Below are positions 12,001 through 31,960 of a stretch of DNA of 35,255 bases, one piece after another. Each line of letters opens with the position of its first letter. Within the stretch, counting starts at the first letter, position 1. Made by a program: the position numbers and the translations under genes. The stretch comes from a virus, in the IMG/VR virus record IMGVR_UViG_3300030060_003936, positions 1 to 35,255 of that record; one strand, given 5' to 3'. The notes below the pieces were generated by a model. The model had not been told where the DNA came from. It saw nothing but the letters and a program-made list of their open reading frames with translations, and made no database searches.

Positions 12001-15000
12001 TTACGCTAAATATTCTTGTATCACTTGGTCTGGGTGTACATCTGGTGAAAGTACTTCTGCCGAAGATTCTAGTTGGAGTTATCCACCACTTAAAACTTGG
12101 ATAACTGATTTTAAAAATATATCAGGATTAAAAAATAAATTAAAAAGCGGTTCTGTTTGGTTTAATGATGATTTAATATCAACATCGCCACTTGTAGACC
12201 CTCAAGATGATTGGAGAAAGAAAAGAGTTGACGGTTGGGTTGGTCCGTTACAAAAAGTAACAAGAAGTACACCTACAAGTACTGCTTCCATAAACTCAAA
12301 CCATATAAACGGTTTGGAAGGTATAGTCACAACTAATAGTTATCATGCTACTGGACCTAGAAGATGGTTTAGTGGTATAACGAGTAATAATACAGAACAT
12401 GGTGTTGGTAGTGATACTAAAACTTATTCTAATGATGGTGAGGTTGATAGGCACTTTATGCACTTATCGTTTTTTGCTCCTGGAAGAGATTTACACCCTG
12501 ATGACTTTAAAGACGCTGATCCAGTTCTTTTTGGTAAAAATTCTTGGGCTGCAAACTTACAAGGTATATGGGGTGGTGGTGTTTTTACCGGCCAATCAAA
12601 AAACAAAAAGTTTGGTACTTCAAACTCTCACCGCCACATTATGATGGAAGGTAATCATGATTCAAATAATAATTATAGAAAATTAACACCAAGGCCTGGG
12701 ATTGGGGTTGGATATAATTTAAAGTACAAAGAACTTCACGCGAGACAATGGGATCCTACTTTTAATAAGAATGGTGATCCTGATAATAAAATAAGAGATT
12801 TTATAAGAAATTTACACGCTGGAGCTAGATTTAGATTTCATAAAGTTGCAAGTTTTGTTACTACTGACACTGTGGCAAGTGCTGTTAGTGATTCTACAGC
12901 AGTTACTTTAAGCACTAGTTATGAAACTACAGGTGTTTTAGCAGGTGACACTGTTAGTGGTGATGGTGTTGATACTGGAACAACAGTAGCAGCTGTAAAC
13001 GTTGGCTCAAGTGCTGTAGCTATAACGTTATCTGCAAATGCAACAATTGCAGCAGGAACACTATTAAAATTTACTGGTACCGATATAAAAAGAGCGGCTA
13101 GTATTGATACAGAGGTGTATACCATTAAAAAAGTAGCTGTAAAAAAATTATACAATCATACTTCTTGGAGAAAACCTTATAATAGATATGTAAGTGGTAC
13201 TTACGAAGACACGTCTAGTGTAGTTGTTGATTATCGTAGCGTAGAAACAGTAGCTTTAGAATATTTAAATACTCTAGACGCATCAGGCGTAAGTAATAGT
13301 ACTATAAAAAGAGACAATCTTAAAAACAAAATAAAAGAATTTGGCAAGGCTAACAATAGAAGAATTTGTTACATAATTGAACTAGACAAAAACCCTGCTG
13401 ACAACACTTCATTTAATCCTTTAGACGCTTCCGAAGATATAATGACGGCCAACTACATATCAGAAGATTTTTGTGATATTGAGTTTTTAGATCCAGTAAA
13501 ATCTGTTCTTCTATCTGATTTAAGTAAATTTCCAGCTATATGGGAAGTTGATCCTAAAAAACAAGAGGTAGATTTAGATATATATTACGAAGCTAGTAGC
13601 AATATACCGGTTAAAATAAATAGTAAAACAAACGAAATGTTTGCACCAATAGGTTGTACTGTTGAAATTTTAAATTCAACTATTACAACTTCTTGTATAT
13701 TAGAATCGTGGAATGGTTCTACTGCAACTTTTTCCCCAGGTTTTCCTAAATACTTTTACGACTCTGTTGCCGATGAGGATGTAGAATTTGATTATTCAGG
13801 TTTGTCATTTAAGTTTATTAGAGAAGATGGTAGCTACACTGTAGCTGAAGCAAGTGCTCATGATTTAGACAGTGCAATTGTTGACTTTAAAACAGAATTT
13901 AAGTTTGAAGAAAATATTGGTCAAAACTTAATGGCTGGACTTTCTTGGTATAATTGTTTTTCTTTTGGTAATGGTGTTGAATCTAATAGAATTAGAGATG
14001 ATTTTAACGAAATATTTATTACTAATGGGGTTAAAGCATCTACAACTACACAGGAAATATATGAAGAAGAAAGAAGAGCACACGGTTTAATATACTCTGG
14101 TATTTACAACTCTAATTCTAGCGTTAATGATCTTAATCAGTTTATAATGGCTGAGAAAATAACTAAAGATTTAAACCCTACGTTTGGTAGTATACAAAAG
14201 TTATTTCAAAGAAGAATAAGTTTGATTGCTTTTTGTGAAGACAGAGTTGTTAGCATAGTTTCTAATAAAGATACTTTATTTAACGCAGATGGTAATCCTC
14301 AATTAATAGCTAGTGATAGAGTGCTTGGTGATGCTAATCCATTTGCTGGTGAATACGGTATATCAACTAATCCAGAATCTTTTGCACAAGAATCTTTTAG
14401 AAGTTATTTTACAGATAAACAAAGAGGCGCTGTTCTTAGATTATCAAGGGACGGTTTAACACCTATATCTAAAAATGGCATGCATGATTGGTTTAGAGAT
14501 AATTTAACAGAGTACAACTCTTTAATAGGTACTTATGATAGTTACAAAGAAGATTATAATTTAACGTTGTCTAATAATAGTTTTAGTCAAAACTTATTAC
14601 AAGATGCTTATATAGAGGCTGGTGGTGACCCAATCACTATAGATCCAACTAATAGGATTGTAGACGGTGGTGTTAACAGTGGTGTAGAGTTTGAATATCT
14701 TTATGAGGCTTACAATGTGCTTGACGTAGTGCCAGGTCCTGAAAATAATCCTTTTGTTTGGGGTAGTTTTATACCAGAATCTTATGCTCTAAGCGCTTCT
14801 GCTAATATTACCCATCACGGTGAAATATTAAAAGGTAGTCTGCAAGCTGAGGTAATAGAGCAAACAAATTTTGATTTATATGGTGCTGTCACTGGATATG
14901 TACCCGCTACTTATAGTACAACTTTAGCTACTAGTGATACTGGTATAAGTGGAAACGTTATTACTTCTGATTTTCCACAAGTTTGGTCAGGTCTTTCTAC

Positions 15001-18000
15001 TACCTCTCAAAACATGGGTTATGATGGTAATTGGCAAATTTCTGGACAAGGAAGGACATCCCAAAATGGTGCTCAAGGTATTTGGTTTTGGAACTCAATT
15101 TTTCCATTTGAAAATAATAATAGTAATTACGCTTCTTATGTATCTAGTTCGTGGACTGTTGTAAATATGGATTCAGATATTAAATGCGATATTAACAAGC
15201 ATGACCCATCGTCAGTATGGAATCAATACCCATCAGGAGGAAGTTCAAGTATGTCGTGGAAATTTGGAAAAGAAGATGTATTTACCTTACCACAATATCC
15301 ATTTGGATATAAATATTATCCAGCGGTGGGTTCAGTATTAACCTCTAGATCTGTTAGTGTTGCTATGGTAGACTTTGACCCTTATTCTGGACAAAAATAT
15401 TTATATCATTTAACAGACAGATTAAACTATAGAGATGCTATAGTATTTGATAGGCCAACAAACGACGCTTGGATTGAATGGAGTAATTTTGGTAAAGACG
15501 GTACAGGTGACCTTGTTGACAACTTCAACGATCCAAACGTGTTTCATGGCTCTATATTTAATGGTGATGAGTTGCATGTTGAAATTGAATTAGGAATTTT
15601 ACCTACATTTTGGGCTGGTGGCGCCTTGTCTTTAGGATCTGGTCAAAACGCATCAGATATACATTATGATTATATAGCTGCTAAATATGGTAGTAATTAT
15701 ATTCAACCTAAAATAGAACTTTGGGACGATGCTACTGGAGCTATTATTTCTTCTTCAATTATACAAGATACTAGTGGGTTACCAGTAGCGACTGGTGGTA
15801 GTAGTGAAACACCTTACAACGCGATACATTCCTCTGCTTATACAGCCGCCGGAAGTGATATTGACGACGCCAATGGTTATGTAAATTCTGGATCAGTAGT
15901 ATTTGAAGACACTTATAATTACGAAAGCCTTGTTGGTCCTTCCAACGCCACTGCAAACGGACAACCAGCAGAGGTATCGCCGTCTGGAAATAATGACTAT
16001 TTTGACGTTACATCTAAAAGTTATACTATTAGTGCTAGTTGGAAGTTTCAAGATAGTGATTCATTAAATAATGATATTAATTCTAGCATATCAGAAAAAC
16101 AAGTTGTTGAAAACCTTAAATTAAGATTGCAAAACATTAGAACGCCTCATAGTGGTAATTGGGCTACCGGTCACCCAGATACAGAAACTCTTTCATCTGC
16201 CTTATCGGGTAGTACAATGGAGGATGTTTATAGTTCAGCTTATGGAGGTTTAGATCCTAATGGCACAGCTTCTCACTTAAATATGTTAAGAGAGCCTATG
16301 TGGTTTGTAAAAAAGATAAAAATACATAAAGGGCACGGAATTACAGCCCCAACAGATCCAGGTGTTAATGATCTTGATATAGCAATATTAGGGGTTGAAG
16401 AAGAACCACCTGTAAATATACCTGCTTGGACGGAGGTTACTCATAACTATTTTAACTTTCCAACTACTTGGAGTATTGTTACTAATGCAGAGTGGTCCGG
16501 TGCTCCAGGTGAAGAAAACACAACGTATACTCACGCTAATACTTCTGATATTTTTGGTGATGATTATCCCGCTGTAGCAGTAAACTCTAATTTTGCAAAC
16601 ACTACACCTGGCCAAGAAATGAATCCTGGAGCTTCATTTTCTTATGTAGTTCCATTTGGATTTGACGAAACTACAGTAGACTTAGGTGGTTATGGTACTG
16701 AAAATCCACCGGGAAATACTACAAATCAATCAAGTATTTCTGGGGCAACAAATTTTACCGCATCGATAAGTAACACTGGTAGTTACACATCTAATACAGT
16801 GTTACATGATAATCAATATATATATGTGGAAAATTACGATAGCACTTCGGCTTCAGATATTACACATGATATAACTAGTGAACCTTGGGTTGCTGGTAAT
16901 TGGTATTTAGTTGATGTTGAGTATAGTGACTTTGTGCATGGAACTGATAGTGGCGATATAATGGTATACGGCGTTGCTTCGGGCGCGAGTTTTGATGATG
17001 GTGAGGCAATAAACGAAGAAGGTGTTGGTTTGTATGGTGGAGATAGTAGTAATGCGCACTGTGTATTAGTACCAGTAATAAGAAATGAATATGGTTTAGT
17101 TGGTGGTGGTGGTGATGGAGAACTTGTTTTAAGAGGTATATTTAAAATACATGGAGATAGTTGGGTTTTAAATAATGAGCCAAATAAATTTACTTTAAGA
17201 GTTTTAGGCTGTACTAATGGTGTCAAAATTAATAAAATAGTTACTAAAAAATTAATTGATACTGCTACCGCTGGAACTGTTGACTATTGGTCTAACCAAG
17301 TACCATCTTCGTCTGATCCGACACATAGCTTTAGTAATAACTCAATGTATTACAAGGCTGATAAGTTATGTTGGGAAATTGAAGCTGATTCAAATGGAAT
17401 TAATCTATATCATATATGGTCACAAGATCTCGTTAATACAAACACTCTTCACCAAGGTCCTTGGGATTTATTTTTTACAGTTAGTATTAATCCGGTTACA
17501 GGTATTTTTTCTGGCTCTTTAAGCGGTGTAATAGCTGTTAGTGATACAGGGGTGTTTAGAGGCGCTGCGTTTAACAAAATAAAAGATGTTGGTAATTATA
17601 AAATTTCTTTTGACCTTACGGATAATTCAGATGGCGCTGGGTGGAAAGTTTACCAAGAAGATTTAAACGGTGATTATATTGAATATACAACGGCAGATAT
17701 TGAAACAGCTATTGATTCACCTTGGAATGTAGGAGATGCTGGTAATAAAATACAATTTCATCAAGATTTAGGCGAAACTAGCGCGCAGGAATACGCTGTT
17801 AGTGGAATATCGTTAACACCTTTAGAACAAACAATTTTAATTGGAAATATAGGATCTTGGAATATAAATGGGTTTGACGTTAATCAAGTAGATCCGTATA
17901 TTTATTTAGACAGCATTAATAATTACTTCGTGTTTGATGATTGTCCTATTCAAGATGATGGCACTCAATTTATAAGTATTACCCAACAAATTAATGAAAG

Positions 18001-19006
18001 TACAAATCAATTTGATAGATATAAAATAAGTTTTAATCATGGTATAACAACAGGTGAAATTAATATTTATTACTATAACGCAAGCGGGTATGGTTTTAAA
18101 ATAACAGGTATAGATAGTTCTACGCCAACAAATTTTGAGCAAATTGTTAGTATTGGAGACGATTTATGGTCGCCAGATCAAGGTATAATAAACGGTAATG
18201 ATTATTCTGGTTATAACTCTGATTTAAAAAACACATTTGTTATACAAGCTTTTGATAACGGTGATGATATAAATGGATATATAGATAATATATCAATGTT
18301 TAAAGTTTATGAAGATGAAACTATAGCTGATAAAACGGTTACGTTTAATGAGTCTGTAAATGGTTGGAGTAGCTTTAAAAGCTTTGTACCTGAAAATGGA
18401 GTTAGTTTATCTAAAAAATACTTTACATTTAAAAACGGTAAATTGTGGCAACATTATATACCGAAATTAAATGGAGCGACTGGAAGTTTTAATGATAATG
18501 GTTTTTATATAAAAACAAAAGCAGAAGAAGCTGATAATTATAATGTTTTTTATGGAAACTCAAGCTATTCTAGTATAAAAAATGTTATAAACCAGGGTTC
18601 TTCAACTGTAAAAATTTTTAATACTATAAATTATGAAGGTAGTCAAGCTTATGTAGCTAAGCCAACTCAATCTGAAATAACGTTAAATAACGCAATGGCT
18701 TGGTCTAATGGTGATGATATTTTAGGTTGGAATTGCTCTGAAATAAAAACAGATTTAGACAGTGGAAGCGTAGTTGAGTTTATTAAAAAAGAAGGCAAAT
18801 GGTTTAATTATATAAAAGGATTAAACACTAGCCAAGTGTTAGATACAAGTAAATTTAGCGTGCAAGGTATTGGTATTGTTTCAAGTACACAAAGCTCATC
18901 TTTTGTACTTGCTACACCGGTTGCACCTTCTGCTCCTTCTGCTCCTTCTGCCCCAGCTCCTGGCAGTGGCAGTGGTAGTGGTAGTGGTAGTGGTAGTGTT
19001 TATTAA
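9026..19006 (+). CDS. Giant tail nozzle/adhesin protein, 3326 aa
   Basis: Likely tail-tube end (nozzle) fused to receptor-binding extensions. The N-terminus (INTFLKG-like: KNTFLKGKMNKDFDERLVPEG, then EYRDALNIEVSTSE) and a segment near residues 1770-1825 (EYGISTNPESFAQESFRSYFT; RGAVLRLSRDGLTPIS; MHDWF) match the two ends of the beta-propeller nozzle protein of short-tailed phages. Between them are long inserts, including a Ser/Thr/Val module at residues 1278-1351. From about residue 1870 to 3295 the chain is a series of Gly/Ser/Asn/Asp-rich beta domains with jelly-roll features (YKISFDLTDNSDGAGWKV; FDRYKISFNHGITTGEINIYY). It ends in Ala-Pro-Ser repeats and six Gly-Ser repeats. The frame is uninterrupted over 9981 nt. 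Confidence 0.7.
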   Translation: MPEIKNTFLKGKMNKDFDERLVPEGEYRDALNIEVSTSESADVGVVKNILGNHRLEDLIPSGFTCVGSIADEQTNKIYWFVSSYNTDAIIEFDVDIYSVSSTTPVAKPVFVDKYVGTPKAVLNFPNKIITGINIIDNLLFWTDNVNNPKKINIDDCKKGTVDLNTHTQLSFDKGSFHGLTINLITDDVELSTNPFTLLSEGEKAWYDTKQLDAVLGTTAVVTGFDSGQHEVKHYRGDEFLGVKKIVAFDVPTAGEQEGTYFHAVDNFDDLNVDSAAWEKGDVIFGNDITVDIEERHITVIKPKPLSSPFVKINYEENVDSDSKIPNIFETKLPRFSYRYKYRDGEFSPFAPFTHPVFNAKYPKDTSVSNDTNIFYNKDNAYDIDEPHNKAMVNSIHSVELTDFVTPHTPEDVEEIEILYKQEESPNIYSISRVKRSHKDWHEPSNYQGLGFNIGLGKSEESNTGTYRAQGGLTKGKYIITTENIYAALPANQLLRPWDNVPKKALAQEVTGNRIVYGNYVQNYDLDKDTEILVSYDDRKGSLNSFESQGLRSIKSQRNYQLGVVYSDKYGRETPVLTSTGGAVNVPWQDGNNNKNASRSLQLNASVTNNFPEWVDSFKFFIKETSNPYYNLIMDRAWVTKSTYELDYTKGNLWISFPSSDRNKISEEDYIILKKKIGTGEEQVSTENKFKIIDIKNNAPDAIKFQLVNYGQIDQKGDNHITTSVFTNADRRMDKEVDTLQLSAEGWQDFINSGSTLFGGIPLEQDQSLSTSISGPIRTTGLYISWRRLDSDGKGVSSKKYKITNGKFDTNYTLKLATPITKIDADIAHFDGNSALTNGNLHPDLIVQIEKRERKDEENFSGKFFVKISKNQVTDLIETGNSVDILDQFQVSTKRFSWYWQDDIAGSSQSAIYNSTDVSNYGLLNYFGENQTHSGADSIHNANNNVEGNTDANASVLKLTDYHDAWAGIETNFGPTFFIDSMHMAAGQSEASNYAKYSCITWSGCTSGESTSAEDSSWSYPPLKTWITDFKNISGLKNKLKSGSVWFNDDLISTSPLVDPQDDWRKKRVDGWVGPLQKVTRSTPTSTASINSNHINGLEGIVTTNSYHATGPRRWFSGITSNNTEHGVGSDTKTYSNDGEVDRHFMHLSFFAPGRDLHPDDFKDADPVLFGKNSWAANLQGIWGGGVFTGQSKNKKFGTSNSHRHIMMEGNHDSNNNYRKLTPRPGIGVGYNLKYKELHARQWDPTFNKNGDPDNKIRDFIRNLHAGARFRFHKVASFVTTDTVASAVSDSTAVTLSTSYETTGVLAGDTVSGDGVDTGTTVAAVNVGSSAVAITLSANATIAAGTLLKFTGTDIKRAASIDTEVYTIKKVAVKKLYNHTSWRKPYNRYVSGTYEDTSSVVVDYRSVETVALEYLNTLDASGVSNSTIKRDNLKNKIKEFGKANNRRICYIIELDKNPADNTSFNPLDASEDIMTANYISEDFCDIEFLDPVKSVLLSDLSKFPAIWEVDPKKQEVDLDIYYEASSNIPVKINSKTNEMFAPIGCTVEILNSTITTSCILESWNGSTATFSPGFPKYFYDSVADEDVEFDYSGLSFKFIREDGSYTVAEASAHDLDSAIVDFKTEFKFEENIGQNLMAGLSWYNCFSFGNGVESNRIRDDFNEIFITNGVKASTTTQEIYEEERRAHGLIYSGIYNSNSSVNDLNQFIMAEKITKDLNPTFGSIQKLFQRRISLIAFCEDRVVSIVSNKDTLFNADGNPQLIASDRVLGDANPFAGEYGISTNPESFAQESFRSYFTDKQRGAVLRLSRDGLTPISKNGMHDWFRDNLTEYNSLIGTYDSYKEDYNLTLSNNSFSQNLLQDAYIEAGGDPITIDPTNRIVDGGVNSGVEFEYLYEAYNVLDVVPGPENNPFVWGSFIPESYALSASANITHHGEILKGSLQAEVIEQTNFDLYGAVTGYVPATYSTTLATSDTGISGNVITSDFPQVWSGLSTTSQNMGYDGNWQISGQGRTSQNGAQGIWFWNSIFPFENNNSNYASYVSSSWTVVNMDSDIKCDINKHDPSSVWNQYPSGGSSSMSWKFGKEDVFTLPQYPFGYKYYPAVGSVLTSRSVSVAMVDFDPYSGQKYLYHLTDRLNYRDAIVFDRPTNDAWIEWSNFGKDGTGDLVDNFNDPNVFHGSIFNGDELHVEIELGILPTFWAGGALSLGSGQNASDIHYDYIAAKYGSNYIQPKIELWDDATGAIISSSIIQDTSGLPVATGGSSETPYNAIHSSAYTAAGSDIDDANGYVNSGSVVFEDTYNYESLVGPSNATANGQPAEVSPSGNNDYFDVTSKSYTISASWKFQDSDSLNNDINSSISEKQVVENLKLRLQNIRTPHSGNWATGHPDTETLSSALSGSTMEDVYSSAYGGLDPNGTASHLNMLREPMWFVKKIKIHKGHGITAPTDPGVNDLDIAILGVEEEPPVNIPAWTEVTHNYFNFPTTWSIVTNAEWSGAPGEENTTYTHANTSDIFGDDYPAVAVNSNFANTTPGQEMNPGASFSYVVPFGFDETTVDLGGYGTENPPGNTTNQSSISGATNFTASISNTGSYTSNTVLHDNQYIYVENYDSTSASDITHDITSEPWVAGNWYLVDVEYSDFVHGTDSGDIMVYGVASGASFDDGEAINEEGVGLYGGDSSNAHCVLVPVIRNEYGLVGGGGDGELVLRGIFKIHGDSWVLNNEPNKFTLRVLGCTNGVKINKIVTKKLIDTATAGTVDYWSNQVPSSSDPTHSFSNNSMYYKADKLCWEIEADSNGINLYHIWSQDLVNTNTLHQGPWDLFFTVSINPVTGIFSGSLSGVIAVSDTGVFRGAAFNKIKDVGNYKISFDLTDNSDGAGWKVYQEDLNGDYIEYTTADIETAIDSPWNVGDAGNKIQFHQDLGETSAQEYAVSGISLTPLEQTILIGNIGSWNINGFDVNQVDPYIYLDSINNYFVFDDCPIQDDGTQFISITQQINESTNQFDRYKISFNHGITTGEINIYYYNASGYGFKITGIDSSTPTNFEQIVSIGDDLWSPDQGIINGNDYSGYNSDLKNTFVIQAFDNGDDINGYIDNISMFKVYEDETIADKTVTFNESVNGWSSFKSFVPENGVSLSKKYFTFKNGKLWQHYIPKLNGATGSFNDNGFYIKTKAEEADNYNVFYGNSSYSSIKNVINQGSSTVKIFNTINYEGSQAYVAKPTQSEITLNNAMAWSNGDDILGWNCSEIKTDLDSGSVVEFIKKEGKWFNYIKGLNTSQVLDTSKFSVQGIGIVSSTQSSSFVLATPVAPSAPSAPSAPAPGSGSGSGSGSGSVY
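12857..13078 (+). repeat. Beta-module copy A within the giant nozzle gene
   Basis: Codes residues 1278-1351 of the 3326-aa protein: TAVTLST, then G(V)LAGDTVSG, TTVAAVNVG, AITLSANATI and AGTLLKFTG. The same order of blocks recurs twice in the next gene, so this is a shared tail module rather than local low complexity. Confidence 0.55.
18923..18997 (+). repeat. Ala-Pro-Ser and Gly-Ser coding repeats at the adhesin C-terminus
   Basis: Three GC(A/T)CCTTCT units (9 nt, Ala-Pro-Ser) start at 18923, then six GG(C/T)AGT units (6 nt, Gly-Ser) run from 18962 to 18997, just before Val-Tyr-stop. The first two Gly-Ser units use GGC and the last four GGT, so the latter are perfect copies. Both repeats keep the frame when units are gained or lost. 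Confidence 0.9.
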
Positions 19007-20293: not shown

Positions 20294-20626
20294 ATGGCAG
20301 AAAAAATAAATTTTAATAATAAAATTAATTCTTCAGTACAAGTTGGTGATACTGTATATGTTTCTAACGTAAACAGTGGTGTTACTACAGATCCAATTTC
20401 TGCTGGAACCATAATAGATGTAAAACCAAGTTATATAATAATAGATAAAGATCCGAGCGCATACCCTGTGATTATGCCCGGTATGTTTATATTATTTTCA
20501 AAACACACAGGTGTAAACGATTCTAGTTTAAAAGGGTATTATGCTAATGTTACTTTTGAAAATTATTCTAACAACTATATAGAGTTATTTGCTATTAGCT
20601 CAGAAATAACTCCTAGTAGTAAATAA
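20294..20626 (+). CDS. Small beta-barrel virion protein, 110 aa
   Basis: A compact beta protein: SVQVGDTVYVSNVNSG (residues about 15-30), AGTIIDVKPSYIIID, then MFILFSK, and a conserved-looking ending with SLKGYYANVTFEN, ELFAISSEI and SSK. The GYYA-x-V-x-F-E-N ... ELFA-x-SSE pattern is one I associate with small structural proteins widespread in environmental phages, placed next to tail genes. No signal peptide or membrane segment. Starts 9 nt after the previous stop and is followed by a 49-nt gap with a small hairpin. Exact role unknown; probably a virion decoration or minor tail component. Confidence 0.62.
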   Translation: MAEKINFNNKINSSVQVGDTVYVSNVNSGVTTDPISAGTIIDVKPSYIIIDKDPSAYPVIMPGMFILFSKHTGVNDSSLKGYYANVTFENYSNNYIELFAISSEITPSSK

Positions 20627-20675: not shown

Positions 20676-22505
20676 ATGAGTAAAAAACAAACAAAAATAT
20701 CACCTTTAAAGCATTACGAAGGAACTCCAGCGGGTCAACATGATCATCCACATGGCAATGTTACTGGCAGACCAGATCGAGATGGTACTACATACACACC
20801 TCAGCCATATTTTAATCCTGACATGCTTGATGAAGACTCCCCTATTGGTAGTTTAGGTTTGATGGCCACAATGGGAGGTTTAGCTCAGTCTGGTAGAGAT
20901 GTACAATTAGCTGAAATGCAAGCCGCTGGAACTAGAGCTGATTTTGACGCTTTTCAATTTGAAAACTTTATGGGTAATTTACAAAACCCATATGCTGATA
21001 TACAAACTGAATTTGATAATTTAGGAGCTGGATATGAAAACGTGGCGGCTGGTATGACAAATGTTACAGAGGGAATGACAAATGTTTATGCCGGCGCAAA
21101 AAACGTGTTTGCAGGCGCTAGAAATACTTTTGCTGGTATGGAAAACGCTTTTGAAGGTCTTGAAAATCAGTTTGCTGGTATGGAAAACCAGTTTACAGGC
21201 TTAGAAAATCAATTTGAAGGTATGGAAAATCGTTATGAAGACATGACGGTAGACATGCGTGCTGCAGATTTTGCTGCTCAACAAGGTCAACAACAAAGAG
21301 CTAATATAATGCAAGGATTAAGAGGTGCCGCTGGTAGTAGTGGTATTGCAGGTTTAGCGCAAGCGATGGCTAGTCAAGGACAGTTAGCGGCTCAACAACA
21401 AGCAGCTGGTATTGGTCAACAAGAAAGACAAAACCAAATGCTTGCAGCTCAAGAGGGCTCCAGGATAGATATGGCACGAAGAGGTGAAGCATCTAGATTA
21501 GCAACTCAAGAGGCTCAAGCAGGTATGGCTATGCAACAAGCTGAAAGGGCCGGGGCAGCACAACTACAAGGACAACAAGCCCAAGCGGCTATGGCAAACC
21601 AAATGGCTTCTCGACAAGGGGAAATGCAAGCACAGCAAATGAGGATGCAAGGAGCAGCGCAACAACAAGCTATGATATTAGGTGGTGCCCAAACACTACA
21701 AAGCCAACAAATTGCAGCTGCTTCACAACTTCAGGGTATTGAGGCACAGTCAGCAATGCAAAACCAACAGATGGATTTTCAAGGCGCTTTACAGGCTGAA
21801 CAAAACGCAATAGCGCAAAATAATTTAATAGCACAAGGTGCTTGGGCCGCTGATTTAGCTGCCGCGCAAGGCGCTATGGACGTTCAAGGTATGGAGTTTG
21901 GTCAGTTATCAACTCAACTAGGTATGGATTACGCGGAATTAGCTGGTGCTAGAGAAGCTTTTCAAATGCAACAACAAAATTTACTTTCTTACGCTGGTTT
22001 AGAAGCTGGTATTGATATGCAGAATTCTGCAAATCGTGCTTCAAATAGAAGCAACTTCTTTAACACAATAGCAACTTTAGGCGTGAAATACCTGTCAAAG
22101 TGTATGCCTAAAGGAACTAACATTGATTGTGTTAGTGGTAAAATTCCAATTGAAAACATAAAACCTGGAGATACCGTAATAGGTTATAGCGGTAGCCCAG
22201 TAAAAGTATTACAAAAACACGAATACTTAGAAGATCCTACTAGAGAAGTATTTTATGAAGTAGAATTTAAAGGTAAAGGTAATAAAACTCACAAGGTAAA
22301 TGTTTGTGATATGCACAGAATAAACAATGTAAGAGCAAAAGACATAACTGAAAACGTTATAAGCAAAAGGATTTATGGTGGTGTTAAGTTTAGTTATGAT
22401 TTAGTAACAGAAGACATGGGTTATAGAATAAACACTATACCAGTAAATAGTATGGTTGGAGAAATGGCGTTAGAAATAGCAGAGTTAAAAAATAAATTAT
22501 TATAA
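20676..22505 (+). CDS. Internal-virion-type protein with C-terminal Hint (intein-like) domain
   Basis: 609 aa in three parts. Residues 1-115 start with a His-rich loop (QHDHPHGN). Residues 118-187 are ten consecutive 7-residue repeats of the form AGMENQF. Residues 190-455 are an Ala/Gln/Met-rich helical region typical of ejected virion proteins (QQGQQQRANIMQGLRGAAG; GIAGLAQAMASQGQL). Residues 476-591 form a Hint domain: Cys476 in CMPKGTNID, then IENIKPGDTVIGYSG, a block-B-like VNVCDMH (His547) and block F/G-like YDLVTEDMGYRIN ending Asn591-Ser592. The penultimate His of inteins is Val590, and the block B Thr is Cys544. An 18-residue tail (SMVGEMALEIAELKNKLL) follows, so cleavage or splicing is possible but not certain. 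Followed after 1 nt by the next gene. Confidence 0.75.
   Translation: MSKKQTKISPLKHYEGTPAGQHDHPHGNVTGRPDRDGTTYTPQPYFNPDMLDEDSPIGSLGLMATMGGLAQSGRDVQLAEMQAAGTRADFDAFQFENFMGNLQNPYADIQTEFDNLGAGYENVAAGMTNVTEGMTNVYAGAKNVFAGARNTFAGMENAFEGLENQFAGMENQFTGLENQFEGMENRYEDMTVDMRAADFAAQQGQQQRANIMQGLRGAAGSSGIAGLAQAMASQGQLAAQQQAAGIGQQERQNQMLAAQEGSRIDMARRGEASRLATQEAQAGMAMQQAERAGAAQLQGQQAQAAMANQMASRQGEMQAQQMRMQGAAQQQAMILGGAQTLQSQQIAAASQLQGIEAQSAMQNQQMDFQGALQAEQNAIAQNNLIAQGAWAADLAAAQGAMDVQGMEFGQLSTQLGMDYAELAGAREAFQMQQQNLLSYAGLEAGIDMQNSANRASNRSNFFNTIATLGVKYLSKCMPKGTNIDCVSGKIPIENIKPGDTVIGYSGSPVKVLQKHEYLEDPTREVFYEVEFKGKGNKTHKVNVCDMHRINNVRAKDITENVISKRIYGGVKFSYDLVTEDMGYRINTIPVNSMVGEMALEIAELKNKLL
21027..21236 (+). repeat. 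Ten heptapeptide (21-nt) repeats
   Basis: Residues 118-187 repeat [AET]-G-[MLAY]-x-N-x-[FYVTA] ten times. Gly at position 2 and Asn at position 5 are invariant in all ten. The last five units are near identical in protein (ENAF, ENQF, ENQF, ENQF, ENRY endings). Gly and Asn at fixed spots make it unlike a simple hydrophobic coiled coil. Confidence 0.9.
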
Positions 22506-22506
22506 T

Positions 22507-24462
22507 ATGGCAAAATACGGAGCAGATGCAACTTTAGTAAACGCGGCTTATAAAGCCTCGATGGCTAACGCACCTAAAGATGTAAGCAAAATACTTGAGA
22601 ATCAACTTAGAAGTTATCAATATACTATGGCTCAAATTAATAATAGCTGGAGTAATGTGATGAGAATGGGTGGTAAACTTTTAGGTATGGCAGCTGCAGG
22701 TCTTAAAAAAAGAACAGAAAGAAGGGCTTTTGGCTCCACCGTTAAAGATGAATTTGGCAATGCTTTTTTAATGGATGGTAGTGAGTTTACTAAAACTATA
22801 AATAACGATAAATTTAACGATCAACTTCCTGAGGTTGAATATGATCCAAGTGATCCTACTGGAAACTGGAGATCTAGAGCAGAGGTTACAGAGGTTATGG
22901 GGTTGAAAGATATAAGCAAAGCTTATAGAGAGACTTTTAAAGAAAATCCTTTTAGTCCAGAAAGTATAGCCGAAAGAATGGAGCTAAACCAAAAAAAGCA
23001 AAGAATATATACTCAAATAGACCAATTAAGAGCGGGTTATGGTAATTTAGAGCAAATATTTGCTAATGAAGGTTATAGTAAAAACGCAATAGCTTCTAAC
23101 TATGGTGATTCTCGTTTTCTAGCTGCTATAGCTGGTGAATCTGAATTTGGAGATAAAATAGTTAAAGGGCACGATGCTAATGGCAATATAATACTTAAAC
23201 TATTTAATAAAAACAATGATCCTATATTACAAGACATGAGTCAACCAATGTCGCAAGATAATAAGCAGTTGACTGTTAGAGCTGATGAGCTAGGCAGTTT
23301 AATAATAGCAAAAGATCCTGCTGTTTTACAAGCAATGAATCAAAGTTTTGAAAGCCTTAGAGCACAAGGTGCTAGTGGCGCTAAGGGCGTGAGCTGGGAG
23401 ACAGTGCAGGGTAAATATAAAAATGAACTTGATAATGTTGTAGGTACAGAAAATCAGCTACACTACGCTATGCATGAAGATGGTTTTTTTAATTTTACAA
23501 GTAGCTTTGTTGATGATTTAACAAGTCAAAGTTTTACTTCTGCAAATTTATATGGCTCTTTAGGTCGCAAAGTACCTGTTGATAAAAATGGTAATCCAGC
23601 TATTGATATTAGTAAAGGTAGTGACCCAGATGCTTTTGATGCTGAAGACTTTGCAACACCAGGTAATTATGCTAAAATTATTCAGGCATTGACAAATAGA
23701 AAAAGTAGATTTTATAACGAAGATGCAACTAGAGATGTTTTTAAAGAATGGGCCGCGCAAAAAGGTTCTGATGTTTTTACTTACGGCACGACTCAAAGAA
23801 AAGAAATTAATCCATGGGGCAACAATAGTCAAATGCGACAGATGTTCTTCCCACCAAATCAAACTTTTAAAGGTGGTATTATGGGTAGTCAATTAAACAA
23901 TGTTGTATCAAGATTTATGCAAGGTTCTGTCCCATCTCCAGATGGTAGCGTTTGGAATGTAGATAAGAAAACACAATCATGGACTAATAATGTTAATGGG
24001 AAAACTATGTCTGGAGATGAAATGATAAAATTACATCAACAAATGTTAACTGGAGATAAGGAAGATGTATTTGACTTAATTTCAGACGCTAGATTCCAAA
24101 GATTTAAAGGAGTTGAAGGCGGAAGCAGTACTCAAGAAACAGCAACTGATTTATCATCTAATCAAATAGGCATTATTAAATCTATGTTTGGTAGAGAGGG
24201 TGATGAAGACATTGCTTATGAAAACATAACAAAAATACTTAATGGTTTTGGTGAAAAAGGTAAAGAAGTTAAGAAAAAATTTAGAATACCAGTGCGACCA
24301 GGTCAAGATAAAATAGAACTTGATGGAGTTGAGTACAATTTAAAAACAATGGGTGAAGCTGATAAGTTTATAGCTGAATTAATGAAAATGATAGGTGGAG
24401 TTGAGGGCGTTAAAAGTGTTGGTGATCAAGCAGACGAATTATTAAGTAAATACGGAAGTTAA
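22507..24462 (+). CDS. Hypothetical internal virion protein, 651 aa
   Basis: No family recognised. The N-terminus (residues 1-70) is helical with a Met/Ala/Gly-rich stretch GGKLLGMAAAGLKKR. The middle alternates charged helices (NPFSPESIAERMELNQKKQRIYTQIDQLRAGY) with loops, and a NPWGNNSQMRQMFFPPNQTF segment lies near residues 436-455. The C-terminus is a basic/acidic helical end (KFIAELMKMIG; QADELLSKYGS). No Cys-rich site, Walker motif or lysozyme signature was found. It is joined by TAATATG junctions to the genes on both sides (609 aa and 2498 aa), so the three are probably made together and form the core packed inside the head and ejected with DNA. That role is inferred from position and helical make-up. 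Confidence 0.6.
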   Translation: MAKYGADATLVNAAYKASMANAPKDVSKILENQLRSYQYTMAQINNSWSNVMRMGGKLLGMAAAGLKKRTERRAFGSTVKDEFGNAFLMDGSEFTKTINNDKFNDQLPEVEYDPSDPTGNWRSRAEVTEVMGLKDISKAYRETFKENPFSPESIAERMELNQKKQRIYTQIDQLRAGYGNLEQIFANEGYSKNAIASNYGDSRFLAAIAGESEFGDKIVKGHDANGNIILKLFNKNNDPILQDMSQPMSQDNKQLTVRADELGSLIIAKDPAVLQAMNQSFESLRAQGASGAKGVSWETVQGKYKNELDNVVGTENQLHYAMHEDGFFNFTSSFVDDLTSQSFTSANLYGSLGRKVPVDKNGNPAIDISKGSDPDAFDAEDFATPGNYAKIIQALTNRKSRFYNEDATRDVFKEWAAQKGSDVFTYGTTQRKEINPWGNNSQMRQMFFPPNQTFKGGIMGSQLNNVVSRFMQGSVPSPDGSVWNVDKKTQSWTNNVNGKTMSGDEMIKLHQQMLTGDKEDVFDLISDARFQRFKGVEGGSSTQETATDLSSNQIGIIKSMFGREGDEDIAYENITKILNGFGEKGKEVKKKFRIPVRPGQDKIELDGVEYNLKTMGEADKFIAELMKMIGGVEGVKSVGDQADELLSKYGS

Positions 24463-24463: not shown

Positions 24464-27400
24464 ATGGATGAATTAAAAGCTATAGTACAGCGTATGATTG
24501 AGGCTGGTGAGTCTGAAGAAAATATCAAACTAGTAATAGAAAGATATCAATCTCAAAACTTGGGAAAGACACAAGGCTCGACGGTAGATTCGACGATGAG
24601 CCAAGGAGGTATGGAATCACAATTGGAAATTGGTTCTTTGGTGCAACCGCCGAACCTGCAAGAAGTAGAACCTTATGATTTTAAAGAAAATAGTAAGGCT
24701 TATAATAGACCAATACTTGATTGGTTTAAATTAATCACTGATGATTGGACGCCTGAAAATGTAAAAGAAACAGATAGGCAAAAAGGAGAGTATTTTGCAA
24801 TGCAACAACATTTAGCTCCTTATTTGGGTTATGACAATGTACTTTCAAATTTTGTAGCAGAAGGTCTTTCAAATGTATTTAGATCAGGTGATATTGGCGT
24901 GGCGCAAGGAGAACAAACTCAACCAAGTTTAGACGTGATGAAACATGGTAAAGATATTACTTTTGAAGAAGCTCAAGCTTTAGTTGATGTAAATTCTAAT
25001 TTACAAAACAAAGAACAAACTGATAATGTTAAAAAATATCAAGAAAGATATGACAAGGTAAAGGAAAAACATGGTGGTACTATGGCTTTTATGGTTGCGG
25101 CGGCTGAAAACCCAATGTACTTAAGAGATGTTTCTATATCTTCTTTATCAAGTATGGCTACCTCTTTACTTACGTCAGAAGACGTTGCTAGAAACGCTTT
25201 TATAGCAGCGCCTGTTGGTGGTGTAGCTGGAGCTAAAGCTGGCCCTGTTGGCGCTGGTTTAGGTTTTGTGTCTACACTCATGGGTACTGTATCTGGAACA
25301 ATGGACGCTGGATTATCTTATCAACAATTTTTAGCGGAGCAATTGGAGGCTGATGGTTTAGATTTTACTCCAGAAAATATACAAAAAGTATTACAAAATG
25401 AAGAAGTTGTTACATATGAAGATCCAAATGGTAATACTTTTTTAAATATAACTGGAACTAGAGCGGAAATACTTAAAAAAAGAGCTACAAGACGTGGTAT
25501 TACTGTTGGCTTTACAGATACCGCTACAGGACTTTTAAGTGGTGGTATTGCTAAAGGTTCTTTAATGTCACCAAAAAAACTAACTACAAGAACAACTAGA
25601 GCTATACAAGGAACTACAACAGCTATAGGTGGTGGTTTAGCCAGTGAAATAGGTGGTCAAACACTAGGTGGGCAAGAGTATGATGCTGGTGAAATACTAA
25701 CAGAAGGTTTTGCGGAAAAAGGTGTTGCTATGACTGGTGTTACTGTTTTACCAAATCTAGTTAAAAAGAAAGGCACTTACTCTATAGAAGACGTAGAAAT
25801 GAGTGAAGCCGAGTTTGTAAAGCAGGTTAACGAAATGGACGATATGACTTTAGCTATGGCTAATATTAATGTTCAAAATGATGCTGTTATGAATAATAAA
25901 CTTGGCATTCGCCAAGACAATGCTATAAGAGACTCTCAAGTTGATGTAAAGGTTAAAGATGTTGAAGATAGAAAAACTTTAATAGAAAAATCTAAAGAAT
26001 TAGAAGCTGCAGAAAAAGATGCTGAAAAAAAAGGTGCATATGCAGTTCCTGGAGCTGATTTAAAAGTAGAAAAAATTAAAGGAGAAATACAAGCTATAAT
26101 AGATAAATATGCTGATGTAGATACTAGAACAAAAGAGGTTAGAGCTAGGGCAAAAATAAAAGAACAAGTAGCTCAAGCTAGGGAAAAAATTGTTTTACAA
26201 CAAACAGAAAAATTTTTAGGTAAAGCTGGTGAACAATTACGTTTAAACCCTTATCAAAGTTACAAAACTACTAAAGATTTTGCTAGTGGACTTGTAGATC
26301 ATCTAATGAAACAAACAAGCTATGAGTTTGATGGTAAAAGCGTAGATATATCAAATCTTTCAAACGAAGAAATAGCTATAGAAGCAAATAGAATAGCAGA
26401 AAGTGCTACTAAAGCAGCTGGTGCGGTTAATATTACAAACTCAGATGGTACAACAAGTATATTAATAAATAGACAGGCTGCTGTAAAATATAGACAGTTA
26501 GATGTTGGTTCTCACGAAATACTTCATAGTGTTTTACGAAACGCTTTGGCCGGTATGACTATTGATAAAAGAAAAACATTAATCAAAGATTTTAAAAATC
26601 AAATTAAAGAAAATCTTGGCGAAAATGTATTGAATAGCATTGAAAAAAGATTAACAGAAGATTACGAAGGTGTTTTAGACTTAGAAACCACAGATGAATG
26701 GTTTACTGCTTTGTCAGATGTTATAGAAGATAAAACAAATCCTATAACTTATGATTCAAATAAAAGTTTTTACGATAACATAAAAGAAAATATTGCTAAG
26801 TTTCTTAATAAAAACACTCCCTACGAAAATTTAAGTATAGAAACTGGTCAAGACGCTTATAACTTTATGAAAGAATATAGTAAAAGCGTTAAAGCTGGTA
26901 AACTTAGCGAAAGTATAGTTAAATTTGCTGAAACTGGTAAAACAACGCCTATAAAAGAAGCAGAGGCTAAGTTTTCAAAAAACAATAGATCAAAAGCTGT
27001 TGATGCTGTAAACAAAATAGAGCAAAAGTTAAAAAACAAATTACAAACAGAGAAAAAAGAGTATACTCAAGATGAGTTTAGAACAAGTGACGAGTTTAAT
27101 GAGTTATTTGATTCTATAACTGAAGCTGGTGGAGCTGTAAACAACTACATCAAAAGCCTTGGTATGAGTAAAGAAAAAACTAAACAAACAGTACAAAAGG
27201 TTTCTGATAGATTAATGGGCTATAATCCACAGGCAGAAAGAAAAACAGGTAGTAAAGAATCTGTAACTATTGGTGAGCGTATAATGTCTGATACTCAATT
27301 TGCAAAACTAGATGCTGCTAGAGATTTAGCTATAGAAAGTAAAAAAGAAGGTAAAACATTAAGAATAGACGCTGCTAAAAGAACTAAAGAAGGTGAAACA

Positions 27401-30400
27401 ACTTTTGATATAGAAGACACTGGGGTTGACGCTAGACAAGAAGCTTTTGAAACAGAAGACATGTCACCAGCTGCTCAACAAAGAAAAAAAGCAGAAAAAG
27501 CTAAAGCAAAAATACAAAAAACATCTAAATTAAGAAAACAAATAGGTATAGAGGAGGGTGGTAAATTATATAACAAAATTATAGACGCTGCAAAACAATC
27601 TTTATTAAAAGCTTATGAAGCTGGTACTTCTGCTAGAAATATACAAAGAAAATTAAGAGATCAAGCTAGTAGTTATTTATTTAGCGATATTAAAAAGTTT
27701 TTAGGCACAAAAGATTATATAAACAATCTAAAAGAGTTTAGAGTACCTATAATAGATGCTTTGTTTACATCCGATTTAGTACAAATAGAAAGACTAGTTC
27801 CTGAAAACGAAAGGATATTTACTAAGTTTGAAAGAAAGCTTACTAGAAAAGCAGATGTTGAAGCAGCTGTTGATCAAGGTTTATTACCAACAGAAGCATT
27901 AAATACTTACGATAGAGATAAATCTGTAAATCTTTATACAAAAATAATGCCGTCTGAGAGTAAATTTATAGCTTTTTTTGATCCACCAGGTTCTTTGCCT
28001 TCTAAAAAAGATCCAACTAAAATGGTTAGAAGTGGATTAAAAGGTACTAGAAAAGACACTTTAGCTAGACAGTTATCGGGTGCCTTATCTTTTGATGCTA
28101 CATTACAAGTAGCGCAAGAACCTGATGTAATAGAAAAAAGATTACAATTTGCTAAAATAAATAACACTGAAATATTAAAAGATGATATTAGTGTTTTAGC
28201 AGCAACAATACATAGAGATCCAAGTGTTAAGTTTGCTAAAGGTAATGTTCAAATATTAGAAGACCCTAAAAAGAAAAAAATATATGATTATGGTAATAAA
28301 GTTGCTAGAGCTTATACTGTTGTTGAAGATATATTTTATAATAATAGGCTAGATTATTATCAAAACTTAACACCAGAACAAAAGAAAAAACATGGTGGTA
28401 AAAAAATGGTTGATATCGCTATTGATCAATACTTATCAAGACCAATTGAACGTTTAGATGGTAGCCGTATAGTTGATATAATAAGAAAAAGTAGAAAAAG
28501 AGGACAGAAAGTTAGCGAAGCATATGAACAATACTTTATAACATCGGCAAACAAAGCTATAAAAGCTATAACGGGCACAAAAGCGAAAGTCAATGTTGTT
28601 GTTAGAGAAGGTGGTATACCAGATGTTCATTTTCAATTTAACGGTACAACAGTAGGTCTTGAAATAAAAATGGATACAGCTAGAGGTGTATCTTCTACAT
28701 GGAAGTTTGATGGTACTTACTCTGTTAATAATCCTATAGAAACAAAAGCTCAAGAAAGTCTAATTGAGCAAATAAAAAACACGGCTAAAATAAAAGTGTT
28801 TGAAGGTATAGATTTTGTTAAAGGAGTTACTAGAGAACAGTTTGAAACATTAAAAAAACACAAGCATAATTTTAATAAATATGTTGATGTTACTGCGGAT
28901 TATTTATCTTGGCAGTACACAAACAAAGCAATGCCTGAGTATTTTATAAACATAGGTGAAGCTGGTGTTTTTTACATGCTTGGTGATAATTCTGCTGTAA
29001 ATGCAATGGTTGTAGATATAGCTGAAAAATTAGGTATTCCAAAACTACAAGGTAATTATAAACTTTATTCTAGACTTAATACTTCTTCAAAATTTAGAAA
29101 AGGAGACGGTAGAAAACCAGTAACAATTAGAACTGATGTTCAAATAGATACAAAGTCTAAAGATAATTTTACAAATGGTTTTTCACCTGTAAACCTTGCT
29201 GTATCAAAAGATATGAATAATTTTGTTAAAGAATTAAACAATTCTTTAGTAAGCTTTAGTAAAAGTAAAAATACTTCAAACATAGATAATGCTGTTAAGT
29301 TTTCTCGTTCAAACAAAAATAAATCTAAAGGTATTACTATTTTAGATTTTGATGATACATTAGCCACAACTAAATCGTTAGTTAAATATACAACTCCAGA
29401 TGGTAAAACTGGAACTTTAAACGCAGAGCAGTATGCTAACACATATGAAGATTTGTTAGCGCAAGGTTATACTTTTGATTTTTCAGATTTTAGTAAAGTA
29501 ATTAAAGGTAAAATAGCACCATTATTTAATAAAGCTATGAAACTTCAAAACAAGTTTGGTTCTAAAAACATGTTTATATTAACCGCTAGACCAGCTGATT
29601 CAACAGTTGCAATACGTGATTTTTTAAAGGCAAATGGCCTAAATATACCTTTAAAAAACATTACTGGTCTTAGTAACTCAACCTCAGAAGCTAAAGCATT
29701 GTGGATTTCTGAAAAAGTTGCAGAAGGTTATAATGACTTTTATTTTGCTGATGATGCTTTGCAAAACGTACAGGCGGTTAAAAATATGTTAGATCAGTTT
29801 GATGTTAAGTCTAAAGTTCAACAAGCTAAAGTTAAGTTTAGCAAAGGTATGAGTAAAGACTTTAATAAAATATTAGAAACAACAAAAGGTGTTCCAGCTA
29901 AAAGTATAATATCAAGAGTTAGAGCTATTGAACGTGGTGCTAAAAAAGGAAAATATGCGTTTTTCTTACCACCATCCGCGGAAGATTTTAAAGGCTTGTT
30001 GTATTATTTTATGGGTAAAGGTAGACAAGGAGATAAAGATGCTGCTTTTTTAAAGAAAGCTTTGGTTGATCCTTTAAATAGAGCTTATACAGAGTTTAAC
30101 GGCGCTAGGCAAGTTATAACAAATGATTATAGAACTTTAAAGAAATCAATGCCAGAAGCCGCAAAAAAAGCAAATCAACAAAGTCCAGATGCTGATTTTA
30201 CATATGGAGATGCTATTAGAGTTTATCTTTGGAACAAAGCAGGTTTTGATATTCCTGGTTTAACCGAAACAGAAACAAACAAATTAGTAGATATGGTAAC
30301 TAGCGATTCTCAATTACAAGTATTTGCTGACAAAGTAGGTTTAATATCTAGAAGACCCGAAGGTTATACTCAACCAGGTGAATATTGGAAGATTGGAGAT

Positions 30401-31960
30401 ATTAGAAATGATTTAGATGATGCTATAAATAAAGTTGGTAGAAAAGAATATTTTGCTGAATTTATTGAAAACACTGAAGAGATTTTTGGCAAAATGGTAA
30501 ATGGTAAACTTACTGGCGATAATATCAATAAAATAGAATCTATATATGGTACAAACTTTAGAGAGGCTTTAGAAGATATATTATATAGAACTATAAATGG
30601 TACTAGTAGACCTTACGGTTCTAATAGATTAGTAAACAGCTTTACTAATTGGGTTAATGGATCTGTTGGAGCTGTTATGTTTGTAAACATGAGATCTGCT
30701 TTACTGCAGCAAATGTCTTCAGTAAACTTTATAAACTATGGTGACAACAACGTGTTTAAAGCCGCTGCTAGATTTGCTGATCAAAAACAGTTTTGGAAAG
30801 ATTGGGTTATGTTATTTAATTCAGACAAACTAAAACAAAGAAGAGCTGGTTTAAGTATGGATATCAATGCTAATGAATTAACAACATATTTAAACAAGTC
30901 AAAATCAAAAACAAAAGCTGCTATAAACTGGTTATTGCGACAAGGATTTAAACCTACACAAATATCGGATAGTATAGCTATTGCAAATGGTGGTGCAACT
31001 TTTTATAGAAATAGAGTTAATACTTATTTAAAGCAAGGTTTAAGTAAAAAAGAAGCAGAAGCAAAAGCTTTTAATGATTTTTCTGAAATAGCAGAAGAAA
31101 CACAACAATCCGCAAGACCTGATATGGCATCACCGCAGCAAGCATCTGCTATTGGTAAGTGGTTTTTAAACTTTTTAAATACACCTATGCAATATAGTCG
31201 TATTATAAAAAAGTCTATGTTAGATTTAATTAATAGAAGAAAAGTACCTAATTTAACACAAGCACAATCTGACACAACTAATATTAGCAGAATATTATAT
31301 TATGGTTTTGCACAAAATGTTATATTTTACACGTTACAAACTGGATTGTTTGCCGCTTTATTTGATGATGATGATGACGAAGAAAGTGAAAAGTTTTTTA
31401 ATAAAAAATATCAGATGGCAGCAAACAGTGTCGTTGATGGTTTGCTTAGAGGATTAGGTTTTGGCGGTGCTGCTGTTTCTACGTTAAAAAATATGATAGT
31501 TAAATTTATTGAAGAAGATAGAAAAGGTTACACAGGAAAACCAGTTGAAAAAGTTACGCTTGAAATGGTAAACTTATCGCCGGTAGTAGGTATTAAAGTT
31601 AGAAAAGTTGCTACAGAACTAAGATCTTATAGTTACGATAAAGATGTTATTAAACATATGGAAACTTTTGATATTGATAATCCAATATGGGGTATTACAA
31701 CAGGTATTACAGAAGGTTTAACTAATATACCTGTTAATAGATTATATAGAAAAACAATGAACTTAAGAGCGGCGACGCAAGATGATATTGAAGCTTGGCA
31801 AAGGCTGGCTTTAATAAGTGGTTGGAGCGTTTGGAACATTGGTATGCAAAATGAAGAGTTAGAAAGAATTAAAGATGAAATTAAACAAGAAAGAAAAAAG
31901 TTAAAAAAGAAAAAGAAAAATACACCAAAAAGACCAGTTCAAGGTGGTATTACATGGTAA
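24464..31960 (+). CDS. Giant polyvalent internal virion protein: metallopeptidase, PD-(D/E)XK and HAD domains
   Basis: 2498 aa. N-terminal helix (1-31), then a Gly/Ala membrane-active stretch (246-280). HExxH metallopeptidase motif at 684-688 (VGSHEILHSVL; His684, Glu685, His688). Helical region with KFSK-type linkers near 820 and 836. A 1070-1240 module (SDIKKFLGTKDY; FIAFFDPPGSLPSKK; RSGLKGTRKDTLARQL) followed by a PD-(D/E)XK-like motif at 1386-1402 (IPDVHF ... GLEIKMD). HAD phosphatase domain at 1612-1791: DFDDT (1628-1632), LTARP (1706-1710), FADDALQNV (1761-1769). The C-terminal ~650 aa is helical with TQQSARPDMASPQQASAIGK and hydrophobic segments (2278-2300) before a five-Asp run, probably a membrane channel or ejection part. 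The chain resembles phage polyvalent proteins that carry several effector domains into the cell. Domain presence seen; catalysis not proven. Confidence 0.78.
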   Translation: MDELKAIVQRMIEAGESEENIKLVIERYQSQNLGKTQGSTVDSTMSQGGMESQLEIGSLVQPPNLQEVEPYDFKENSKAYNRPILDWFKLITDDWTPENVKETDRQKGEYFAMQQHLAPYLGYDNVLSNFVAEGLSNVFRSGDIGVAQGEQTQPSLDVMKHGKDITFEEAQALVDVNSNLQNKEQTDNVKKYQERYDKVKEKHGGTMAFMVAAAENPMYLRDVSISSLSSMATSLLTSEDVARNAFIAAPVGGVAGAKAGPVGAGLGFVSTLMGTVSGTMDAGLSYQQFLAEQLEADGLDFTPENIQKVLQNEEVVTYEDPNGNTFLNITGTRAEILKKRATRRGITVGFTDTATGLLSGGIAKGSLMSPKKLTTRTTRAIQGTTTAIGGGLASEIGGQTLGGQEYDAGEILTEGFAEKGVAMTGVTVLPNLVKKKGTYSIEDVEMSEAEFVKQVNEMDDMTLAMANINVQNDAVMNNKLGIRQDNAIRDSQVDVKVKDVEDRKTLIEKSKELEAAEKDAEKKGAYAVPGADLKVEKIKGEIQAIIDKYADVDTRTKEVRARAKIKEQVAQAREKIVLQQTEKFLGKAGEQLRLNPYQSYKTTKDFASGLVDHLMKQTSYEFDGKSVDISNLSNEEIAIEANRIAESATKAAGAVNITNSDGTTSILINRQAAVKYRQLDVGSHEILHSVLRNALAGMTIDKRKTLIKDFKNQIKENLGENVLNSIEKRLTEDYEGVLDLETTDEWFTALSDVIEDKTNPITYDSNKSFYDNIKENIAKFLNKNTPYENLSIETGQDAYNFMKEYSKSVKAGKLSESIVKFAETGKTTPIKEAEAKFSKNNRSKAVDAVNKIEQKLKNKLQTEKKEYTQDEFRTSDEFNELFDSITEAGGAVNNYIKSLGMSKEKTKQTVQKVSDRLMGYNPQAERKTGSKESVTIGERIMSDTQFAKLDAARDLAIESKKEGKTLRIDAAKRTKEGETTFDIEDTGVDARQEAFETEDMSPAAQQRKKAEKAKAKIQKTSKLRKQIGIEEGGKLYNKIIDAAKQSLLKAYEAGTSARNIQRKLRDQASSYLFSDIKKFLGTKDYINNLKEFRVPIIDALFTSDLVQIERLVPENERIFTKFERKLTRKADVEAAVDQGLLPTEALNTYDRDKSVNLYTKIMPSESKFIAFFDPPGSLPSKKDPTKMVRSGLKGTRKDTLARQLSGALSFDATLQVAQEPDVIEKRLQFAKINNTEILKDDISVLAATIHRDPSVKFAKGNVQILEDPKKKKIYDYGNKVARAYTVVEDIFYNNRLDYYQNLTPEQKKKHGGKKMVDIAIDQYLSRPIERLDGSRIVDIIRKSRKRGQKVSEAYEQYFITSANKAIKAITGTKAKVNVVVREGGIPDVHFQFNGTTVGLEIKMDTARGVSSTWKFDGTYSVNNPIETKAQESLIEQIKNTAKIKVFEGIDFVKGVTREQFETLKKHKHNFNKYVDVTADYLSWQYTNKAMPEYFINIGEAGVFYMLGDNSAVNAMVVDIAEKLGIPKLQGNYKLYSRLNTSSKFRKGDGRKPVTIRTDVQIDTKSKDNFTNGFSPVNLAVSKDMNNFVKELNNSLVSFSKSKNTSNIDNAVKFSRSNKNKSKGITILDFDDTLATTKSLVKYTTPDGKTGTLNAEQYANTYEDLLAQGYTFDFSDFSKVIKGKIAPLFNKAMKLQNKFGSKNMFILTARPADSTVAIRDFLKANGLNIPLKNITGLSNSTSEAKALWISEKVAEGYNDFYFADDALQNVQAVKNMLDQFDVKSKVQQAKVKFSKGMSKDFNKILETTKGVPAKSIISRVRAIERGAKKGKYAFFLPPSAEDFKGLLYYFMGKGRQGDKDAAFLKKALVDPLNRAYTEFNGARQVITNDYRTLKKSMPEAAKKANQQSPDADFTYGDAIRVYLWNKAGFDIPGLTETETNKLVDMVTSDSQLQVFADKVGLISRRPEGYTQPGEYWKIGDIRNDLDDAINKVGRKEYFAEFIENTEEIFGKMVNGKLTGDNINKIESIYGTNFREALEDILYRTINGTSRPYGSNRLVNSFTNWVNGSVGAVMFVNMRSALLQQMSSVNFINYGDNNVFKAAARFADQKQFWKDWVMLFNSDKLKQRRAGLSMDINANELTTYLNKSKSKTKAAINWLLRQGFKPTQISDSIAIANGGATFYRNRVNTYLKQGLSKKEAEAKAFNDFSEIAEETQQSARPDMASPQQASAIGKWFLNFLNTPMQYSRIIKKSMLDLINRRKVPNLTQAQSDTTNISRILYYGFAQNVIFYTLQTGLFAALFDDDDDEESEKFFNKKYQMAANSVVDGLLRGLGFGGAAVSTLKNMIVKFIEEDRKGYTGKPVEKVTLEMVNLSPVVGIKVRKVATELRSYSYDKDVIKHMETFDIDNPIWGITTGITEGLTNIPVNRLYRKTMNLRAATQDDIEAWQRLALISGWSVWNIGMQNEELERIKDEIKQERKKLKKKKKNTPKRPVQGGITW

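Follow-up and report, generated by a model that had tools for sequence, protein, structure and literature searches.

A Hint module at the C terminus of a putative gp14-like ejection protein of a podovirus is exchanged with Peptidase_S74 in sibling phages

The stretch of DNA analysed here (the window) comprises bases 1–35255 of a 45,946-base virus record (IMG/VR record IMGVR_UViG_3300030060_003936). Its portal is related to those of Flavobacterium, Cellulophaga, Maribacter and Tenacibaculum phages (41–52% identity among the matches listed) and the gene order agrees with that of Elemovirus and of Maribacter phage Panino; the virus is a short-tailed podovirus. On the plus strand, a gene for a 609-aa protein (20676..22505) is followed by genes for proteins of 651 aa (22507..24462) and 2498 aa (24464..31960). 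This layout, which is common to other Hint-bearing contigs, fits the published gp14-gp15-gp16 gene order (PMC8954989), with the 609-aa gene as the first of the cassette and, by synteny, a gp15-like ejection protein and a gp16-like giant internal protein behind it. At the corresponding position elemo88 encodes a 202-aa 'structural protein' (QMP84707) and Panino a 216-aa protein annotated as structural (CDS0072), both without a Hint domain. No PHROG match named the N-terminal part of the window type an ejection protein; three Hint-bearing members with other N-terminal parts (L049, L051 and L054) matched phrog_4287, 'DNA ejection protein'. From its position, composition and resemblance we infer that the 609-aa protein is a gp14-like ejection protein, which probably helps to push the viral DNA into the host cell.

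Elsewhere in the window, a 110-aa gene product (20294–20626) matched the C-terminal part of phrog_18548 (144–237), while residues 3103–3211 of a 3326-aa protein (9026–19006) matched its N-terminal part (3–90), as if a single protein had been split across the two genes. Two further matches fell just under the Pfam cut-off: a PAP2-like (phosphatidic acid phosphatase) match at 34348–34875 (E 1.8e-5) and a thioredoxin match of a small protein at 33373–33699 (E 9e-5). A thioredoxin-like redox protein could be relevant to a thiol-dependent Hint domain.

Residues 1–475 of the 609-aa protein (20676..22100) form a Gln/Ala-rich ejection-protein body with homologues at 37 viral loci. Near-repeats of seven residues (GMENQFA, GLENQFE) occur within it at residues ~119–192 (21030–21251), with a weak match to an ice-binding beta-roll model. 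The initial annotation had placed a Hint domain at the end of this protein, and the translated reading frame carries all motifs that it named. Cys476 (codon 22101–22103), the putative nucleophile, opens CMPKGTNIDC and block A, which extends to GDTVIG (residues 498–503; 22101..22184). A conserved loop, H515-E-Y-L-E519 (22218..22232), precedes block B, VNVCDMH (22296..22316), whose CDMH (residues 544–547) places Cys544 at the Thr position (B:7) and His547 at B:10. Block F (SYDLVTEDMGYRI; 22392..22430) and the block G region, NTIPVNSM (22431..22454), follow, and in the 15-sequence alignment both the block-F His and the block-G His are missing. Asn591-Ser592 lies at 22446–22451, with 18 residues (592–609) beyond Asn591 and 17 beyond Ser592. 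These last 17 (residues 593–609; 22452..22502) are a predicted helical tail, which the models, the alignment and the DNA comparison assign to the module.

Profile searches and predicted structures confirmed a Hint domain within the C-terminal 134 residues. Pfam Hint_2 (PF13403) matched from Cys1 onwards, below threshold both in the window (E 6.7e-5) and in the best family member (E 3.2e-5), and the relative L065 exceeded the curated cut-off (33.1 versus 28.4 bits). A seven-member profile searched against the PDB matched PI-SceI and the BIL domain of C. thermocellum, a 15-member profile matched the Cat intein C-fragment across blocks B and F (E 3.8e-4), and NCBIfam returned nothing useful for the domain. 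AlphaFold2 models were obtained for residues 466–609 (pLDDT 86.9) and for the divergent member L055 (pLDDT 88.2). All 18 Foldseek matches of the window model to solved structures at E <= 0.001 were inteins or BIL domains. By structural alignment, the best match of both models was the Hedgehog autoprocessing domain 1at0 (window: Z 15.3, 1.8 A over 112 residues; L055: Z 16.7, 1.9 A over 119 residues), and inteins ranked after it. Thus the features of the Hint superfamily, namely the fold in the predicted models, a Cys at position 1 and a His in block B, are all present, and the position in the gp14-like cassette agrees with the earlier assignment of the domain to the end of a virion-type protein.

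Searches of IMG/VR yielded 13 domain-bearing loci, to which a DNA pattern for the tail added L093 and L098. Of 84,980 prokaryote species scanned, no more than two matched, both of them Verrucomicrobia MAGs; among 50,697 phage records there was no close relative but only remote intein matches, and no cultured phage with the module was found. The family, counted with the window and without the near-duplicate L053, thus comprises 15 viral and 2 bacterial sequences, of which L093 and L098 were not part of the 15-sequence alignment but are included where 17 members are given. A general Verrucomicrobia family was rejected, as the single matching genome of 289 was the query's own source; searches of this phylum for Hint_2 and for inteins yielded nothing informative. 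Each genome searched had one copy of the module. The bacterial relatives L065 (9872–10453, 193 aa) and L066 (8011–8619, 202 aa) look like lipoproteins by sequence: ahead of the Hint domain they have a signal sequence, then a Cys in a lipobox-like context and a short hydrophobic segment. Their neighbours are ordinary bacterial genes (LolA and NDH2 at L065, a C39 ABC exporter and HlyD at L066).

The other viral sequences of the alignment are 42–68% identical to the window, with 31 invariant columns over the 15 sequences. Invariant residues include Cys1, the block-B C-D-M-H, His515 and Glu519, Asn-Ser-Met in the last block, one Glu of the tail, and Lys471 at position −5 from Cys1 (22086..22088). 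The latter is kept in 17/17 members although the other flanking residues vary. In the two loci found by the tail pattern, block B reads SDSH (L093) and CDTH (L098), with Cys1 and the block-B His present in both; position B:7 may thus be Cys or Ser. The helical tail is conserved along with the Hint domain. A hydrophobic segment ahead of Cys1 is strong in several members and weak in the window. In L051/L052, the most closely related pair that could be used, dN/dS was 0.10 in the Hint part versus 0.25 in the N-terminal part; on this one pair, the Hint domain is under purifying selection.

The N-terminal parts of the members fall into several groups without detectable mutual similarity, whereas the Hint parts are 43–82% identical. 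Between the window and L003, DNA homology in this region starts at 22101, exactly where the Cys1 codon begins. By these comparisons, Hint and tail are a mobile C-terminal module. The sibling L002 (5001–6674) is 77% identical to the window protein over residues 1–454, lacks the Hint domain and ends in Peptidase_S74 (Pfam E 6e-4); the two DNAs are similar up to 22004 and again from 22504, a base within the stop codon, after which they share 89.7% identity over most of the following gene. Five other siblings (L008, L018, L020, L023 and L026) also have S74 ends, one of them above the Pfam cut-off, and other siblings end without any module. Among relatives of other N-terminal types, only one remote locus was found that carries S74 or no module. 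Siblings without the Hint domain also lack the tail, and the tail travels with the Hint. As no relative has the tail but not the Hint, there is no empty extein site; an inserted intein was rejected on this ground, in agreement with the initial annotation, which had doubted a typical intein in an enzyme.

Peptidase_S74 (PF13884, intramolecular chaperone autocleavage) is mostly reported from tail fibres and spikes. In MYRF it cuts between P586 and S587, directly ahead of the catalytic Ser (PMC8326128), and its catalytic dyad is Ser587/Lys592 (PMC3742440). The corresponding Ser-x4-Lys pattern (SDRRLK) is kept in the S74-bearing phage siblings. As is proposed for the Hint module, S74 has its nucleophile as the first residue past the cut, and it takes the same place in sibling genes; it differs in its unrelated sequence, its Ser-Lys dyad and its activity as a trimer. 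Two unrelated domains, each expected to act on the bond that precedes its own first residue, thus alternate at one site. The presence of S74 at the Hint position in close relatives suggests that self-trimming of the ejection protein matters for infection. The literature searched, a partial body of papers, did not describe any ejection protein that carries a Hint or an S74 domain.

Whether the domain could also act at its C-terminal end depends on the register in which its final block is read. The initial annotation had read Asn591-Ser592 as an intein C-terminal junction in which only the penultimate His was replaced, a reading at odds with both models. In the structural alignments, the last aligned pair joins the model Ser with Asn145 of MchDnaB-1 (6rix), Asn440 of Mtu RecA and Asn198 of Mxe GyrA, the catalytic Asn in which each of these chains ends (N145 is confirmed by the title of 6riy). 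The chain ranges of these alignments give end residues only, so that longer-running rows are supportive rather than exact, and a few (e.g. 6zgq) would fit only with gaps. In the HMMER alignment to the Cat intein, the turn Gly-Ile lies opposite Asn-Gly-Ile, and this continues into the register with Ser592 in the Asn slot. When the final 40 residues were aligned pairwise with seven inteins, most of the alignments were meaningless. Most likely, Ser592 and not Asn591 fills the catalytic-Asn slot, and Asn591 that of the penultimate His. From the turn residue to the catalytic Asn, the spacing is 5 in the inteins compared (at least 6 in some), versus 4 to Asn591. With Ser592 in the Asn slot of two independent models and a five-residue turn spacing in most compared inteins, Asn cyclisation is not expected. 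On the modelled register, the domain quite probably lacks the catalytic Asn and, like Hedgehog, retains N-terminal chemistry alone, and classic C-terminal cleavage or splicing is unlikely.

We put a probability of about 60% on the reading that the gp14-like protein bears a Hedgehog-type self-processing module, in which N-terminal cleavage at Cys476 sheds the Hint domain together with the tail, a role like that of S74. Cys476, aided by His547 and the block-B Cys or Ser, would undergo an N-S acyl shift and form a thioester with residue 475. This thioester would be resolved by water or another nucleophile, hydrolysis being most likely. A fragment of 134 residues (roughly 15 kDa) would be released, leaving the ejection protein with an unscarred C terminus; since Ser592 probably occupies the catalytic-Asn slot, neither Asn cyclisation nor splicing would follow. 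Of the release or trimming role proposed earlier, trimming or loss of the tail is plausible, whereas release through cleavage at Asn591 is not expected. The Hint module would then do the same job as S74 in the sibling phages, that of a C-terminal device which is present during assembly and afterwards removes itself. With a folded Hint domain at its end, the ejection protein might stay soluble or be assembled at the right moment, after which the domain would depart in the manner of S74. Simple N-terminal cleavage does not account for why Asn591 and the tail are invariant.

Their invariance is an argument for an intein- or BIL-like reaction at Asn591/Ser592, by which the tail would be released or joined to the N-terminal part: Asn-Ser-Met is found in 15/15 aligned members, the tail is conserved, Ser is an allowed +1 residue, and the penultimate His is dispensable in some inteins, which are able to splice without it (PMC7664689). 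We nevertheless regard such a reaction as unlikely, since both models put Ser592 in the catalytic-Asn slot, the turn-to-Asn spacing would be shorter than in any intein compared, the block-F and block-G His are absent, and among the relatives the tail never occurs without the Hint. The altered blocks B and G could instead point to an inactive Hint domain with a role in structure, oligomerisation or metal binding, with Cys476, Cys544 and His547, all invariant in the 15-member alignment, as ligands. The Ser in place of the block-B Cys in L093 weakens the case for a zinc site or a Cys476-Cys544 disulfide; furthermore, Cys1 and Lys(−5) are strictly kept and the domain is swapped with another autocleaving module, which makes an inactive domain improbable.

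The likeness to Hedgehog, the nearest fold, also raises the question of transfer, in which the Cys476 thioester would be passed to an envelope lipid, an amine or a protein, so that the ejection protein becomes anchored or crosslinked in the envelope of the host. T7 gp14 localises to the outer membrane (PMC8954989), the bacterial relatives are lipoprotein-like, one of them (L065) near a LolA gene, and the His515/Glu519 loop could possibly serve as a general base. Against this stand the absence of a sterol- or adduct-recognition region, with a 17-residue tail only, and the S74 siblings, which are expected to cleave and nothing more. We also know of no adduct for the module, and consider transfer quite improbable. 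Its most specific form is more speculative still: once ejection has taken place, the ejection protein would have its C terminus moved from Cys476 to a lipid or another nucleophile of the envelope, the DNA-ejection pore would be anchored in the host outer membrane, and the lipoprotein-like relatives in bacteria would rely on that chemistry too.

Among known systems, the preferred reading of N-terminal self-cleavage has its closest parallel in the Hedgehog Hog domain, which shares the fold, Cys1, the block-B His, the C-terminal placement and, by structural alignment, a last strand without catalytic Asn. The phage module differs in having Cys, not Thr, at B:7, an ejection protein as partner and, past Ser592, a short helical tail without the sterol-recognition region. 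Class 1 inteins (Mtu RecA, Mxe GyrA, Ssp DnaB) have the same fold and the same order of blocks A, B and F. Unlike them, the module has no endonuclease, no site in a conserved enzyme and no block-F or block-G His; the predicted structures lack an in-register Asn, Gln or Asp followed by Cys, Ser or Thr in the last strand, no relative has the host gene with the tail but free of the Hint, and the tail is part of the module. Class 3 inteins are marked by a WCT motif and lack Cys1; the phage module has Cys1, the alignment shows a residue other than Trp at B:12, and this class was rejected. BIL type A/B and Hint_2 domains likewise occur in variable non-enzyme proteins, and weak Hint_2 matches and C. 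thermocellum BIL (2lwy) were among the matches. BIL type A ends in His-Asn, whereas the phage module has Pro-Val-Asn-Ser (Asn-Ser in these positions by register), lies at the C terminus and carries a fixed helical tail.

In phages, most known Hint domains are inteins of enzymes, and the fold and chemistry described here are already known. Relative to the literature searched, what is new is where the module sits (a putative ejection protein), that S74 can replace it, that its helical tail is fixed, and which residues it combines (Lys(−5), Cys or Ser at B:7 and, in the last strand, Asn-Ser). A compact Hog-like Hint domain that lacks the Asn and has a short tail, found beyond animals, may be a tool and may offer a clue to the evolution of Hedgehog chemistry. 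To our knowledge, the assembly of the DNA-ejection apparatus is still poorly understood. One Hint family ends the putative ejection proteins of diverse podoviruses, and an unrelated autocleaving domain swaps in at that very spot; if both domains cut, self-removal of a C-terminal device would be a selected step in making or using this apparatus.
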